From positions 1 through 38,853 of the IMG/VR virus record IMGVR_UViG_3300028590_000048: a stretch of DNA of 38,853 bases; one strand, 5' to 3'. Positions 7,584 through 38,803 of the stretch are shown piece after piece. Numbering within the stretch: the first letter of the stretch is position 1; every line of letters starts with the position of its first letter. The notes beneath the pieces are model-generated. The model was given only the letters and a program-made list of their open reading frames with translations. It did no database searches and was not told the origin of the DNA. The position numbers and the translations under genes were made by a program. This stretch comes from a virus.

Positions 7584-8780
7584 TCAGAGCACTCCCAATT
7601 CTCGTGCGATGGAGGAGATCTCCTGGATCATTTCCATGGCCTTCTGGATGGGGTCTTCGGGTTCGCGGTGGCCGATGACCAGGTCCCAGTGCGGGGTGGT
7701 CTTGCGGTCCCACCACAGAGTCAGCTCGGTGATGCGGTCGACGTAGACCTTCCCGGGCTTGCCCCAGTCCTTGACCGTGGTGCCGATGCGGGTGCCCAGC
7801 CAGGCGTTGCCCTTGCCGCGCTCGCCGACTAGCAGACCCTCGAGCCCGTCGACGACGGTCACCGAGTGCGTGGTCTGCTCGCGGGTCCGCCACATGCCGG
7901 TGCGCAGCGCGATCAGAGCGGACAGGGTGTAGGCGCGGTCGGCGCCCTCGCACCAGGCTTCCTGGTAGTGCGACCAGCCGAGATCGTTGGCGCGCGGTAT
8001 GTCTTGCCACTTCATGAACGCGCCGAACACGTCGGTGTACAGCGGTTTCAGCACGGCATCGGCAGCGCCGCCGACCGGTGGGATGAAGACCGCCGCGGCG
8101 ATGAGGTCGCCGATCATGTTGATGGCGGCGGAGATCGCCTCGTTGATTCCTGGGGCGGAGTGGCCGCCGGTGACGAACTCGGTGTCGGTGGCCGGTTTCC
8201 AGTGGAACGAATTCGACTGGATGCCGGTGTGGTCGCCGTCGCGCAGGATGATGCCGGGCGCGCTCGGGAAGGTGCCGACCCAGCCGGGCTCGCCGTACTC
8301 GGCGGGGAATGTCGGGTCGTCGATGATGTCGATGCCCTGCGTCAATCCATCGGAGGCGATGGAGGTGACCGCGCGGGTGAGTCCGGTGAAAAGGTTTCCG
8401 CCGAAGGAGGTTTCGGTGGCCCAGCCGGAGTTGTCGACGAGATCCCAGACGAGCGTGCCGTGCCGCAGGTCCGCGCCCTCCCAGGGCGGTTCGTCGCCTT
8501 CGAGGTAGCGCCGCGGCACCCACGTGTACTGGCCGTCGGCGGTGACCCGCTTCTGGACGTCGAACATGTATTTGAAGCGGGAGTGCACGACGGCGAGCTG
8601 GGAATTGTCCTCCTCGATCGGGGAGGGCTTCACCACCTGCGACCACTCGGACTGATCGAGGTCGAACCACCCAGCACCGTTTACCGGATCGTCGGGGACG
8701 GTCCAGAGGTTGCCCTCGAGCCGGAGGATGTTGAAGAACAGGGTGGTCTTCAGTGCCCAGATTGCTGGACCGAAGAGGAT
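7584..8780 (-). CDS. Minor tail protein, C-terminal part (ReqiPepy6 Gp37-like)
   Basis: Up to 398 residues of a phage tail protein. The frame opens right after an in-frame TGA (8781-8783) with LFGPAIWALKTTLFFNILRL, which looks like the continuation of the N-terminal part encoded from 9286. Further on: TETSFGGNLFTGLTRAVTSI, an amphipathic region (AAINMIGDLIAAAVFIPPVG) and a C-terminal domain (WDRKTTPHWDLVIGHREPEDPI) typical of the family. No credible start codon exists before GTG 8636, 145 nt into conserved sequence. This part is therefore either joined to the N-terminal part by recoding or is a fragment of a gene broken by a small insertion (see findings). Confidence 0.75.
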   Translation of the reverse strand: MLFGPAIWALKTTLFFNILRLEGNLWTVPDDPVNGAGWFDLDQSEWSQVVKPSPIEEDNSQLAVVHSRFKYMFDVQKRVTADGQYTWVPRRYLEGDEPPWEGADLRHGTLVWDLVDNSGWATETSFGGNLFTGLTRAVTSIASDGLTQGIDIIDDPTFPAEYGEPGWVGTFPSAPGIILRDGDHTGIQSNSFHWKPATDTEFVTGGHSAPGINEAISAAINMIGDLIAAAVFIPPVGGAADAVLKPLYTDVFGAFMKWQDIPRANDLGWSHYQEAWCEGADRAYTLSALIALRTGMWRTREQTTHSVTVVDGLEGLLVGERGKGNAWLGTRIGTTVKDWGKPGKVYVDRITELTLWWDRKTTPHWDLVIGHREPEDPIQKAMEMIQEISSIARELGVL

Positions 8781-8791
8781 TCATGATTGGC

Positions 8792-8837
8792 CTGGGCCTG
8801 ACCCCCCGCCCGCGATGGGGCGGGGGGTCAGGCCCAG
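8792..8837 (-). other. 46-nt perfect hairpin between the two halves of the tail gene
   Basis: Arms 8792-8811 and 8818-8837 are perfectly complementary over 20 bp with a 6-nt loop (8812-8817). In the mRNA sense the 5' arm begins at the last base of a GTC codon and contains TGG GCC and the TGA stop (8830-8828) of the N-terminal half; the 3' arm ends 8 nt before an ATG-like triplet in another frame. There is no T run, so it is not a standard terminator. No second copy was found by eye in this window. Confidence 0.9.
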
Positions 8838-9286
8838 ACGCGGGGGAACTGTATTTCTGGGGGCAGGAACGGGTTGCTGTACGCGATGATGTGCTTGAGG
8901 TGCTCGAAGTCCGATTTGAAGATGGCCTTGACGGTGCGCTCGCCGTCGTCGGACTTGTCCTGACCGAGGTCGTCGAGCATCCACCCGGTGCGCGAGCCGT
9001 CCTTGTCGACGGTCAGGAAGACGTTCTTCAGGCGGTCGTCGTGGTTGGTCAGCCACCGCGACAGGTAGTACTTCGCCGGGAGTTCGATGACGCCCTGGCC
9101 GGTCTCGTTCTCCGGCAGTTGGAACCGCGCGGAGATCTCGTTGTGGACCTCGCCGACGAAGTTCCAGTCGCCGTCCCACAGCCGGACCAAGGGCCGCTGA
9201 ATGCGACGTTCCTCGTCGCGGCGGAGACGCTCGATGATGCCGTCGAATACGGCATCGAAATCGATCTCTTCAGCTATTGCTGGCAT
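8828..9286 (-). CDS. Minor tail protein, N-terminal part (ReqiPepy6 Gp37-like)
   Basis: A 152-residue product: helical start (EEIDFDAVFDGIIERLRRDEE), then RPLVRLWDGDWNFVGEV (residues 31-47), EISARFQLPENETGQGVIELPAKYYLSRWL, and FEHLKHIIAYSNPFLPPEIQ before it stops in a hairpin. This is the N-terminal domain of ReqiPepy6 Gp37-like tail proteins, which are normally about 500-600 residues and continue into sequence seen here in another frame downstream. ATG 9286 follows a GGAG motif 12 nt upstream. The protein should sit at the tail tip, after the distal tail protein. Confidence 0.85.
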   Translation of the reverse strand: MPAIAEEIDFDAVFDGIIERLRRDEERRIQRPLVRLWDGDWNFVGEVHNEISARFQLPENETGQGVIELPAKYYLSRWLTNHDDRLKNVFLTVDKDGSRTGWMLDDLGQDKSDDGERTVKAIFKSDFEHLKHIIAYSNPFLPPEIQFPRVWA

Positions 9287-9293
9287 TTGGGAT

Positions 9294-10232
9294 TTACTCC
9301 AATCCCCATGGCCGCGGCCAAGGTCGCGGGCACTGAACCTGAATCTTGGTTCCGATCGGCGCGCCGCTGACCTTCACCGGATACAGGGCGTTCGGGGTGC
9401 GGCCGGGAATCGGGTAGCACAGACGCCTGCCGCCCATTCGCTGATGGAACTGGGTGTCCAGGCTGCTGACGAACGGGCCGCCGAACGCCATCTTGTCGCT
9501 GCGCACCAGCAGGTGTTCGTCCTCCAGCAGCGGGGCGAGGATCAGCTTGCGCAGCGCGTCCTCTTCGGCGCGCTCGTAGTCGTCGGACCCGTGGGAGTAG
9601 TCGGGGAGTTCGACGACCATGCCTTCGGCCGCGGCCTGGATCCGCCACTCCGGCCAGATCTCGTAATCCTCCGGAAGCGGGTTGCCCATCTTCACGTAGC
9701 CGATTTCGAATCCGGATTCGGTGGTGTCGGTCGTGGTGGTGAACGTGGAGATGAGAGGCTCGCCCATCCACCGCGGATAGGCACCGATCAGCGGTAACAG
9801 GATCAGGCCGTACTGTTCACCCTTCGGATTCCAGGTGGCCTTGATCTTCGTTTTGCCGCCGAGCCGCACCGGCAGGCACCGGCGCGAATCGCCCTCCTTG
9901 ACCCACAGTTTCGAATCCCGCTTCGCCGACCACGACAGCCGGAATTCGGAATCGACATCGCGCCAATTCATCTGCGGCGTGGACATGACGTGCACGGCCA
10001 GGATGAAGTCGTACTTCTCTTCCCTGATCCCGCCGAATCGGGCACCGACCTCGAACGCCGTGCTGTTGTAGATCGCCGTGAACGGCGCGTCGTACATGCC
10101 GTCGAAATCGGTGCCCTCGTCCTCGTCGGCGAGCGCAACACCCTGATCCCACTGGTCCTCACCAGCCAGGGTCCACATCCGGCCGTTGCAGCCCTCGGCC
10201 TCGACCTTGATGTCATCCGGTGGCGTGATCAA
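9294..10232 (-). CDS. Distal tail or first minor tail protein
   Basis: A 312-residue protein immediately after the tape measure, the standard slot for the distal tail (Dit-like) protein. It is beta-rich with many aromatic residues: GRMWTLAGEDQWDQGV near the start, an N-terminal ring-like domain, then KTKIKATWNPKGE and a C-terminal galectin-like part ending PGRTPNALYPVKVSG, which fits actinophage first minor tail proteins. The start is a TTG at 10232 overlapping the tape-measure stop (TTGA), the only initiation triplet giving the usual overlap; no good alternative lies within 60 nt downstream. Confidence 0.8.
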   Translation of the reverse strand: MITPPDDIKVEAEGCNGRMWTLAGEDQWDQGVALADEDEGTDFDGMYDAPFTAIYNSTAFEVGARFGGIREEKYDFILAVHVMSTPQMNWRDVDSEFRLSWSAKRDSKLWVKEGDSRRCLPVRLGGKTKIKATWNPKGEQYGLILLPLIGAYPRWMGEPLISTFTTTTDTTESGFEIGYVKMGNPLPEDYEIWPEWRIQAAAEGMVVELPDYSHGSDDYERAEEDALRKLILAPLLEDEHLLVRSDKMAFGGPFVSSLDTQFHQRMGGRRLCYPIPGRTPNALYPVKVSGAPIGTKIQVQCPRPWPRPWGLE

Positions 10233-30634: not shown

Positions 30635-31008
30635 CAGGACACTCCGATCGGGATCTTGAACCGTGGGTCAATGACGGGGAAATAGAACCGCTCCCCGCGC
30701 GCGGCGCTGTCCCACGTGCACCGGAACTCCGCGTCCCACACACGCATCCGCGGTGCCTGCGTGGCCGCCCGGATGGCGTGGTCGAGCACCGCGCCGTCGG
30801 ACTCATCGAGGATCGGAGCGAGCGTCGGGTGCGCTACCTCCCGACACCGGTCCCGGGGGATCGCGCGCGCGTTCGAGATCTCGCCGTACGGGTGCCAGCC
30901 TTGATCCGCGAACGGATCGGTCGGCACATCCCAGGGGTGTAGCTCGGCGAGCCGGGTGATCAGGATCTCCCTGGCCGCCCGCTGAGCCGGGCCGAGGTGC
31001 TCGATCAT
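30634..31008 (-). CDS. Hypothetical protein, 124 aa
   Basis: Not recognised. Helical start (LGPAQRAAREILITRLAEL), then WDVPTDPFADQGWHPYGEIS, and a C-terminal element MRVWDAEFRCTW (residues 88-99) that again has the RxWDxxF pattern seen in neighbouring proteins. No zinc or catalytic motif. ATG 31008 overlaps the upstream stop (ATGA). Confidence 0.68.
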   Translation of the reverse strand: MIEHLGPAQRAAREILITRLAELHPWDVPTDPFADQGWHPYGEISNARAIPRDRCREVAHPTLAPILDESDGAVLDHAIRAATQAPRMRVWDAEFRCTWDSAARGERFYFPVIDPRFKIPIGVS

Positions 31009-31703
31009 CGCGGCTCTCCGACGACATCGAGGTGGGCACGGCGCACGCGCAGGAGGAAGTCCTCGATCGGCACCTCGTGCGGTTCGTCGGGTAGCGCGGT
31101 CACCGCGCCGTTGAACTTGGCTTCGTACTCCTCGATCAGCCGCTTCGCGCACTTCGCCTCGGGGTCGGCGAGCACCTGCTCACCGAATGCGAAGAACGGG
31201 GCGGGGTCCGGCGCGCGGATGGGCAACTCGCCCGTCGTGTACAGCTCGTACCCCTGCCACAGCACGCGCATTGTGTGGCGGGCGTGCTTCTCGCGGCGGG
31301 TCTCCAGGCTGCCCTGGAACCGGCCGCGCTCGATCAGTCGATGGAACTGGGACACCGCGTAGCCGAAGAACGCGTTGCGGACACGGTGGGCGGACAGGAA
31401 ACACTCACGCAGCGACACGAGTTCGAGTCCCTCGTCACTGGCGTGGGTCCACTCGTCGAGCCACAGCACCTCCGATGCGGTCGGGTTGCACGACAGCATC
31501 AGACTCAGCGCCTTGCCGATCTCGTGGTAGGTCGCGTCGGCACCGTTGCGGCCCTTCTTCGTGGCGCGCTCACGCGAGGGCGGGTGCAGCCCGAGCAGGA
31601 TCTCGGTGGGCTCGACGTATATCCCGGTGTAGTCGATATCGGAGGTGGGCGTGTTGAGGCCGTAGGCGGTTGAGCCGACCACGCCTTCGAGGAGCAGGTT
31701 CAC
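31005..31703 (-). CDS. RlaP-like nucleotidyltransferase
   Basis: A 232-residue protein beginning with the pol-beta nucleotidyltransferase signature: GSTAYGLNTPTSDIDYTGIYV (Gly10-Ser11, Asp22, Asp24). Conserved features of the RlaP family follow: ATYHEIGKALSLMLSCNPTASEVLW and a helical C-terminal half with RREKHARHTMRVLWQGYEL. RlaP proteins are often linked to RNA ligases, and may process RNA ends; no ligase is seen in this window. GTG 31703 has AAGGAGGCACCCG upstream and overlaps the upstream stop. Confidence 0.85.
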   Translation of the reverse strand: MNLLLEGVVGSTAYGLNTPTSDIDYTGIYVEPTEILLGLHPPSRERATKKGRNGADATYHEIGKALSLMLSCNPTASEVLWLDEWTHASDEGLELVSLRECFLSAHRVRNAFFGYAVSQFHRLIERGRFQGSLETRREKHARHTMRVLWQGYELYTTGELPIRAPDPAPFFAFGEQVLADPEAKCAKRLIEEYEAKFNGAVTALPDEPHEVPIEDFLLRVRRAHLDVVGEPR

Positions 31704-32164
31704 CGGGTGCCTCCTTCGGGATGGGTGAGGAAGTGGTCGATGGTTCGGGCCATGTCCCGCATCGCCTCTCGGTCGCGGCGCACGCGCTCCAGCTCGGCCT
31801 GCCACCACTGGCTCACCGGCGTGGGCGGGGAGGGCTCGACGAGCGACACCACCACGTGCCCGCCGCCGGGGATCAGCAGGTCGGCCTGAGTGGACTGATC
31901 GACGAACACCTGCCCGCCACTGCCCGGCGCGTGCTCGAACCCGTGGACCCGCACGTAGGTGCCGCTGAGCACCGCCCAGATGGTGCGGGCATGGAACACA
32001 CTGGCGAGCGGGGCGAGCTGGGTGCAGTCGCCCAGCAGGATCCGGCCCGCGAGGTAGGGCTTGGTCTCCGACCAGTAGGTGCCGACCTCGGGACGCGCGC
32101 CGGTCAAGGTGGTCAGATGCTCGACGCCGCCCGGCGTTTCGATGACGATCTCTACATCGATCAC
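31700..32164 (-). CDS. Hypothetical protein, 154 aa
   Basis: Not recognised. Beta-rich N-terminal domain (DVEIVIETPGGVEHLTTLTG, then a hydrophobic middle FHARTIWAVLSGTYVRVHG), C-terminal helix ending in DHFLTHPEGG. GTG 32164 has GGAGGTGCCCG upstream and overlaps the upstream stop (GTGA). Nothing indicates a function. Confidence 0.68.
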   Translation of the reverse strand: MIDVEIVIETPGGVEHLTTLTGARPEVGTYWSETKPYLAGRILLGDCTQLAPLASVFHARTIWAVLSGTYVRVHGFEHAPGSGGQVFVDQSTQADLLIPGGGHVVVSLVEPSPPTPVSQWWQAELERVRRDREAMRDMARTIDHFLTHPEGGTR

Positions 32165-32463
32165 CGGGCACCTCCGGTGAAGAACTCGCGTGCCGCGGCG
32201 AGGGTGGCGGTCCCCATCTCCCGGATCCCGGCGGCGATCTCGCGGGCGAGGGATTGACGGGTCGGCATCCGCTTCGGCAGCGACCTGAACTCGTGGCCGA
32301 ACTCGCTGTCGGGGTGCAGCTCTCGCCACGCGTCATCAGCCGCCCGATAGCGCTCGCTGAATCGAGGGTGCGGTTTCCGTGCTTCCGCCGCCTCGGCGAT
32401 CATCCGATTCGCGTAGCGGTTGATGAATTCGAGGTAGCTCTCTCGGGTCTCGACATCGGCCAT
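32161..32463 (-). CDS. Hypothetical helical protein, 100 aa
   Basis: Not recognised. All-helical appearance with many Arg/Glu (ESYLEFINRYANRMIAEAAEARK, ERYRAADDAWRELHP). No zinc or membrane segment. ATG 32463 lies 3 nt after the upstream stop. Could be a small nucleic-acid-binding or adaptor protein; composition alone does not decide. Confidence 0.68.
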   Translation of the reverse strand: MADVETRESYLEFINRYANRMIAEAAEARKPHPRFSERYRAADDAWRELHPDSEFGHEFRSLPKRMPTRQSLAREIAAGIREMGTATLAAAREFFTGGAR

Positions 32464-37645: not shown

Positions 37646-38803
37646 TCATGACATTGCTCCGAAATCCGCATCGGCCACTGGCAGTACGTACTGCGGGCCG
37701 CACTCGCTCGGTACCGCCGTCTCGCCGAATTCGAACAATGGATCCATGGAGTCGAACAGCGGATCAGGACCGCAGTTGGTGGAGCACAACGAGGTGCGTG
37801 CCATCTCTTCGACCGTGTCGGGGTCGTCCACTGTGCCGCCCCATCCCCATTTCTTGCGATGCTTGGGGATATCGGGGCGGTCGGCGATCTCCGCCTCCAC
37901 CTGATCGACCATCTGAATGAACGGGTCGTGCGGATATGCGCAGCGCCAACGGTCCGGCTCGCCCGCTGTGGCGTTCGCCAGGCACCCGCACTCCCCGGAC
38001 ATGCCCAACTTCTGAGCCACCGGGTTGACGGGGATGTCCGGGAACATCAGTCGGTAGGCGATCAGGTCGGCCTTGTGCCACACCGCCAACGGCGAGACCC
38101 ATAGGGTGGTGCCGCGTGCGTCGGCGTACGGGATGGTGGTGCGGGTCTTGGACTCAGAGCGGCGGCGCCCAGCAATGAACACCACGCGGTGATGCTTTGA
38201 TCCGCTGATCCCGAAGTGATGCGGAACCTTCTCCAGCGCACGTTCCTTGAGTCGCTGATACATGACTCCATGCGCGGCCGGGCCCGGGAACCCGCCCGGC
38301 CATGCCCGCACCAGCTCTCCCGTCGCGCGGCTGCGCGCCATCACCGTGCCCCGCACCAGGTCGAAATAGCCTTCTCCCGGTTTCGGGGTGTGCTCGATCA
38401 ACGGCACGCCCCACCGCGACGCGGTGGCGCGCACAAAATCTCGCGTCGCCTCGATTCCGGTTTGAGTGTTGGCATGCACCTGATGGGTGGCTACGTCACG
38501 AAAGATATGCGCGACGGTGTAGGAGTCGTTGCCGCCGGACACCAGCGAGCAGAACCCGACGACCTCTTTGCCGGAGGCGTGCTCATCGATCGCCCGGTCG
38601 AACTTGTTCTGCGCCAACCGGATCAACGCATGTACACGAGACTCACGCTCGGAGCGGGTCAGGCGCACAACTAGATCCAGTGGCGTCGGATACTCCGGAT
38701 GTGGGTCCAGAGGGTTCGGATCAATGGGGACGTCGGAGTCCAGGCCCAGCGGCAAGGTCGCCGCAGATGGGCGATGACGAGACTCGCGCGCGCTGCCAGT
38801 CAT
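37646..38803 (-). CDS. PAPS reductase/DndC-like enzyme
   Basis: A 385-residue protein of the adenine nucleotide alpha-hydrolase (PP-loop) type: SLVSGGNDSYTVAHI with SGGNDS at residues 89-94, then VHANTQTGIEATRDFV (the TG-E step of PAPS reductases), GVPLIEHTPK and a conserved WVSPLAVWHKADLIAY. Cys272, Cys274, Cys288, Cys340 and Cys344 could bind an iron-sulfur cluster, as in DndC-type proteins. Possible roles are DNA phosphorothioation-like or base thiolation chemistry, or sulfur supply; no Dnd partners are in view. ATG 38803 overlaps the upstream stop (ATGA). Confidence 0.85.
   Translation of the reverse strand: MTGSARESRHRPSAATLPLGLDSDVPIDPNPLDPHPEYPTPLDLVVRLTRSERESRVHALIRLAQNKFDRAIDEHASGKEVVGFCSLVSGGNDSYTVAHIFRDVATHQVHANTQTGIEATRDFVRATASRWGVPLIEHTPKPGEGYFDLVRGTVMARSRATGELVRAWPGGFPGPAAHGVMYQRLKERALEKVPHHFGISGSKHHRVVFIAGRRRSESKTRTTIPYADARGTTLWVSPLAVWHKADLIAYRLMFPDIPVNPVAQKLGMSGECGCLANATAGEPDRWRCAYPHDPFIQMVDQVEAEIADRPDIPKHRKKWGWGGTVDDPDTVEEMARTSLCSTNCGPDPLFDSMDPLFEFGETAVPSECGPQYVLPVADADFGAMS

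Follow-up and report, generated by a model that had tools for sequence, protein, structure and literature searches.

The window considered here is the whole of a 38,853-nt stretch of viral DNA (IMG/VR record IMGVR_UViG_3300028590_000048), and on its minus strand, from 9286 to 7584, it carries a gene for a Gp37-like minor tail protein (PF14594 and phrog_110 by profile matches) whose reading frame is broken by a hairpin, which raises the question of whether, and by what route, one tail protein is still made from it. Its surroundings are those of an otherwise unremarkable late region of a siphovirus, with genes for capsid, portal, protease, tape measure and tail. The first-pass annotation had described a tail gene split by a hairpin, and the split proved real: the stem, the two halves and the single profile to which both belong were all recovered. 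The N-terminal part (8834-9286, minus strand) comprises 151 codons, from the ATG at 9286 to Trp151, matches PF14594 (E = 4e-27) and phrog_110 (E = 1.5e-45), and aligns without gaps to intact relatives; the C-terminal part (7584-8780, minus strand) comprises 398 codons, resumes at the ATC at 8780, matches PF14594 (E = 1e-58) and is 76-79% identical to intact relatives. As an open reading frame the N-half runs from 9286 to 8828 and ends in ...FPRVWA-stop, and the C-half frame is open from 8780 to 7584. In profile searches the N-half covers positions 35-184 of phrog_110 and 2-114 of PF14594 and the C-half positions 185-579 and 115-369, respectively; because these positions are contiguous, no residue of Gp37 is missing.

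Intact relatives read FPRLW-ILFGP at this junction within one uninterrupted gene, and no relative was found in which the region forms two genes, the second with its own start. Aligning both halves with Gp37-like proteins, a check proposed in the annotation, placed the junction at W/ILFGP with no residue lost and left the Ala codon before the stop outside the joined protein. The C-half frame has no start codon before codon 49, in agreement with the earlier remark that no usable start lies near its beginning, and 48 conserved codons are thus left without one. Relative to intact genes (L003-L005 and L009, which lack it), the insert spans 8781-8833 (minus strand), a putatively untranslated gap of 53 nt that includes its last triplet, and the reading frame changes across it; the gap of 50 nt given previously is correct when counted from the Ala codon but falls short of the full insert (8833-8781).

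The insert forms most of a hairpin at 8790-8839 (minus strand), which on the mRNA strand has a 22-bp stem with one G.U pair and a 6-nt loop. The perfect 20-bp stem reported within it (8792-8811/8818-8837, with the 6-nt loop) is present, and no other hairpin in the window has a perfect stem of at least 15 bp. Its predicted RNA fold has a z-score of -6.1, and none of 200 shuffles was equally stable. The 5' arm starts three nucleotides ahead of TGG, the last codon of the N-half, and so includes the putative take-off codon (TGG, Trp151; 8834-8836, minus strand), the residue that precedes the insert in comparison with relatives and the unique best junction. A TGA stop in the original frame is the second codon after it (8828-8830, minus strand), a feature that other elements do not conserve, and a block of C residues occupies gap positions 8-11 (8823-8826, minus strand), about 11-14 nt after the first nucleotide of the take-off codon. 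The candidate landing triplet is TGA (8781-8783, minus strand), which could re-pair with tRNA-Trp at two of three positions. It had been suggested instead that the ribosome hops from TGG-GCC to TGG-GCA (8761-8755); we rejected this landing because it would delete ILFGPAI(W), which is conserved in relatives.

No copy of the exact 20-nt arm of the window hairpin was found elsewhere in the viral contigs; what unites such inserts as a family is structure and not sequence. The first relative found to be interrupted (L008, with a longer copy in L026) carries a different hairpin at a different place from that in the window. We searched viral and genomic contigs together with 150 Nocardia genomes, 18 from the genus to which Rhodococcus sp. 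HM1 belongs and 401 from the wider family. These yielded 27 different hairpin inserts, distributed over five positions in gp37 and carried by 26 gp37 genes of prophages or viruses. Site A (NPF/LPPE) is occupied in seven genes and by the first element of L024, site A' lies a few codons upstream of it, site B (W/ILFGP) holds the window element, site C (PGV/NELIS) supplied the 14 elements of our covariation set, and site D (WCL/KTT) includes the second element of L024. The gp37 gene of L024 (IMGVR_UViG_2802429328_000003, 9835-10000) thus contains two elements, at sites A and D and about 120 nt apart, and two consecutive skips would be needed to read it; the first of them is 54 nt long and in frame, yet contains a TAG. 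Insert length is 46-55 nt in 26 of the 27 and 72 nt in the remaining one, and all three frame classes are represented. Two broken gp37 copies without a hairpin (L084 and L095), which are likely true pseudogenes, and a natural in-frame extension (L088) were set aside.

The hosts of the carriers are mostly Nocardia, together with Rhodococcus (L014), its genus group (L085 and L086) and one other genus of the family (L110), and further carriers are viral records such as L023 and L165. A gp37 homologue occurs in 76 of the 150 Nocardia genomes, and most of these are uninterrupted. Presence and absence of the elements are scattered over the gp37 tree, which requires at least six changes for site A and at least seven for site C (gains or losses); this pattern suggests that the elements have been gained repeatedly or are mobile. 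In 148 Nocardia genomes, covariance-model matches below about E = 1e-7 fell in gp37 only, and the idea of a mobile repeat with copies throughout the host genome was rejected. No element was evident in other phage genes across 735 kb of (pro)phage and flanking sequence examined for perfect stems of at least 15 bp, nor outside gp37 in 17 viral records searched with the covariance model. Among cultured phages, the 60 records sampled across the ranking, and in addition the top-ranked lists, out of about 2,400 records, were all intact, and no plaque-forming carrier is therefore known. The 20 weaker covariance-model matches that we opened in Nocardia genomes resemble intergenic terminators and were discarded as elements. 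One very conserved, apparently intergenic terminator-like hairpin, ACTGTGCCCCAACCGG...CCGGTTGGGGCACAGT, recurs in many Nocardia genomes (L141, L142, L147-L149, L151-L153 and similar loci) with a weak score under the same model; such a hairpin could be a source of the type found in gp37.

Two other genes of the window may be recorded here. An RlaP-family gene (RNA repair-associated nucleotidyltransferase, PF10127) lies at 31005-32336 (minus strand), and RlaP also occurs in the record of L008 and in one intact relative. It is absent from the other element-bearing viral records searched and is therefore not linked to the hairpins; it was rejected as their partner. A PAPS-reductase-like gene (PF01507, phrog_424) at 37646-38803 (minus strand) is possibly a DNA-modification or auxiliary gene.

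We then compared the two edges of each insert, with the take-off defined as the final conserved codon ahead of it and the landing as its own last triplet. In all 27 elements, at least two positions of the landing triplet can pair with the take-off tRNA; the background is 19%, and when the comparison is offset by up to 9 nt the count is 0-13 of 27. Junctions were ambiguous by one or two codons in several genes, where the matched option was chosen; in ten elements the protein alignment allows a single junction, and all ten match at two of three positions. The match is often just two of three, the triplets being identical in only 2 of the 27 elements. Identity at codon positions 1, 2 and 3 was 24, 19 and 10 of 27, or 25, 27 and 21 of 27 when C and T are counted as equal, and at each of the six positions upstream of the codon it was at background level (0-6 of 27). 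What is repeated is precisely a single codon, in register and relaxed at its third position, a pattern that is predicted by anticodon re-pairing and not by target-site duplication.

The identity of the landing triplets suggests that they are not decoded. Two are UGA, in the separate TGG-to-TGA elements of the window and of L074; eight site C elements land on GCC or GCG (Ala), whereas of 43 intact homologues 37 have Val at this position, 6 have Ile and none has Ala; and the landing triplets at site A are Leu codons where an otherwise conserved Phe would be needed. In the window, the TGA at 8783-8781 would accordingly be passed over, with ATC at 8780 as the probable resume codon. The take-off codon at site A is UUU in every case (the seven site A genes and the first L024 element), whereas intact genes at this codon have UUC in 25 cases and UUU in 9; this preference is consistent with a weak wobble pair that would favour release.

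The inserts also share features of structure. Every one of the 27 elements has G at gap position 1 and C at positions 9 and 10 (C also stands at position 8 in 23 and at position 11 in 26), a C block at about +11 to +14 from the first nucleotide of the take-off codon that we take to be near the usual placement of the ribosomal helicase. Stems are about 16-23 bp, GC-rich and very stable, and in most elements the stem base lies 4-8 nt ahead of the landing triplet. A stop directly adjacent to the take-off on its 3' side occurs in none; it is the second codon in the window and in L086, and comes later or is absent elsewhere. Upstream peptides vary among sites, and a shared nascent-peptide signal is not evident. 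Across the 14 site C elements, 13 of 21 pairs show two-sided changes, 97.3% of stem cells are paired (77.8% when shuffled), and the covariation score is 0.588 against 0.205 for shuffles, none of 500 of which reached it; the shuffles leave the effect of relatedness in place, but sliding the partner by one column lowers the score to 0.14. Non-Watson-Crick pairs on the mRNA (coding) strand are G.U in 31-38 cases and A.C in 2-3 under three symmetric scorings. Since the stems covary and tolerate G.U but not A.C, selection appears to act on the structure of the mRNA strand, and the strand bias argues against a DNA palindrome maintained by arm-to-arm correction, for which no bias is expected.

Taken from these comparisons of sequence, it is highly probable that the inserts are programmed translational bypass elements that yield one continuous tail protein, and the bypass option raised in the first-pass annotation is strongly favoured by the related gp37 genes. 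We infer that joining takes place on the ribosome. In the window, the ribosome would decode gp37 up to Trp151 (UGG), the hairpin presumably contributing to a pause; the peptidyl-tRNA would release the mRNA and some 53 nt would go by undecoded, until the tRNA re-paired with the UGA triplet 6 nt past the stem base; decoding would then restart at AUC, now in a different frame, and a single full-length tail protein would result. The predicted junction peptides are FPRVWILFGPAIWALK for the window and NPFLPPE for site A.

The joining could also be achieved before translation, if the hairpin were excised from the mRNA, as a tiny intron or by RNase III cleavage and ligation, and the spliced message were translated normally. 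RNase III recognises duplexes such as perfect stems of about 20 bp, the same joined protein would result, and structure selected on the mRNA strand fits this account too. We nonetheless regard it as improbable, given that inserts of 46-55 nt are far under the size of known self-splicing introns and that the window yields no Rfam hit at or above the gathering score of its family; on the hairpin, sub-threshold matches are to chance-level microRNA or cis-regulatory models, and neither the catalytic core nor the size of a group I or II intron was found. Nor would excision explain why the final triplet resembles the codon ahead of the insert, in register and with wobble, and the RNA-repair gene RlaP, which one intact record has, is missing from most records that carry an element.

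Selection on the downstream half bears on a different possibility, that a palindromic DNA insertion inactivated gp37 and left a pseudogene in decaying prophages. The scattered distribution fits this, the carriers are mostly prophages and not isolated phages, and the matched triplets could be target duplications. However, the C-half of every element-bearing gene is open to its natural stop, and dN/dS is 0.05-0.24 between the closer element-bearing pairs listed. The downstream halves thus appear to be under purifying selection in the 26 genes, with no relaxation found between element-bearing sisters, and this selection in turn suggests that a joined protein is made. Site C elements, moreover, persist over deep branches of the gp37 tree with compensatory changes. 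Synonymous sites next to the junction point the same way. GC3 in the first three codons after landing is 0.43, whereas the corresponding codons of intact genes have 0.85, and GC3 is raised, to 0.93, over the five codons that precede take-off; over all 27 elements the dip covers the first 3-10 codons after landing, with recovery by about codon 16, and over six post-landing codons it gives p = 3e-13, a value that is too small and only indicative because elements within a clade are not independent. Such A/U-ending codons are the signature expected of an unstructured zone in which decoding would resume. This synonymous shift, the one-strand excess of G.U and the codon-phased repeat are not expected of a dead insertion, so that inactivation seems very improbable and, as a general account, already contradicted; the palindrome that broke the gene, an option in the earlier reading, is rejected on this comparative evidence.

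Still less probable is the production of two polypeptides, the second by reinitiation downstream of the hairpin, that would then assemble. Several site C genes do have an in-frame ATG nine codons past the resume point, but the window has no start for its 48 conserved C-half codons, the residues right after the landing triplet are as conserved as in intact homologues, and the matched triplets would be left unexplained. That the element is removed or skipped at the level of DNA or transcription, by precise excision or by polymerase slippage between short repeats, is scarcely credible: replication slippage can delete perfect palindromes flanked by short repeats, but the repeats here are of 2-3 nt, always in codon register and with a wobble-like third position, and the excess of G.U over A.C pairs speaks for structure in the RNA.

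If programmed bypass is accepted, a more tentative proposal can be made, to which we give somewhat less than even weight: that the elements are mobile, self-contained cassettes in which a hairpin and a cognate triplet at its far end suffice for actinobacterial ribosomes to skip about 50 nt almost anywhere in a gene, that one gene can hold two in series, and that they have spread through phage tail genes, perhaps because they abolish target sites of inteins or homing endonucleases. Gp37 of Nocardia prophages also carries inteins, of roughly 130-180 aa (L016/L017, L089-L094): those of L090 and L091 adjoin site B, those of L016, L089, L092 and L093 are some 10 residues or less from site C, and that of L094 lies further downstream. 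Inteins and hairpins interrupt the same conserved stretches of the protein. The inteins are, however, long in-frame inserts with splice motifs, whereas the hairpins either shift the frame or include stop codons and are much too small; the window insert, of 53 nt with a stop codon, does not qualify as an intein. In T4, the gap has been connected with protection against a homing endonuclease (PMC5009743), and with inteins at neighbouring gp37 positions a similar origin of the hairpins is possible.

Automated annotation treats genes of this kind as split or broken. For decades, long programmed bypass in bacteria and their phages has been well established for one T4 gene only; reviews note that counterparts were long presumed and have hardly been found (PMC5009743, PMC3014915), and in the open-access literature our searches returned no bypass described for phages of Nocardia or Rhodococcus. 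The 27 natural elements, varied in sequence, codon pairs, frames and sites, would be a first comparative data set of bacterial bypass signals, and they suggest testable rules: a hairpin over the take-off codon, a C block near the helicase position, a two-of-three landing and an A/U-rich resume zone.

The closest known parallel is T4 gene 60, whose 50-nt gap joins two frames of a phage protein (PMC11194080, PMC5009743), much as a gap of about 50 nt would do here with no residue lost. In both, the take-off codon lies within a stem-loop and the landing triplet can pair with the take-off tRNA, and decoding resumes, or in gp37 would resume, at the next codon. Sliding in T4 is highly processive up to 56 nt (PMC11194080), a range that takes in 26 of the 27 gaps, and the title of a T4 study cited in PMC3014915 states that minimal peptidyl-tRNA:mRNA pairing can suffice for resumption. 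Unlike gene 60, to which we saw no sequence relation, the gp37 elements have very stable stems of about 16-23 bp, no conserved stop after take-off, a landing that often matches at two of three positions and no evident shared nascent-peptide signal, and they recur at five sites of one gene family; with no adjacent stop and relaxed codon matching, we therefore do not file them as members of the gene-60 family. The terminase of Streptomyces phage Hau3 is a suspected case of bypass in another actinobacterial phage, with a proposed joining of ORFs (PMC5009743), but its gap is much shorter and UUA-dependent, and both the gene and the signal differ. The byps of Magnusiomyces capitatus mitochondria resemble the gp37 elements in being many short untranslated inserts that are bypassed with two-of-three matches between take-off and landing (PMC5009743). 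They are mitochondrial, however, occur in many genes and are said to be independent of mRNA context, whereas the gp37 elements belong to one phage gene family, carry long GC-rich hairpins and would be read by bacterial ribosomes.
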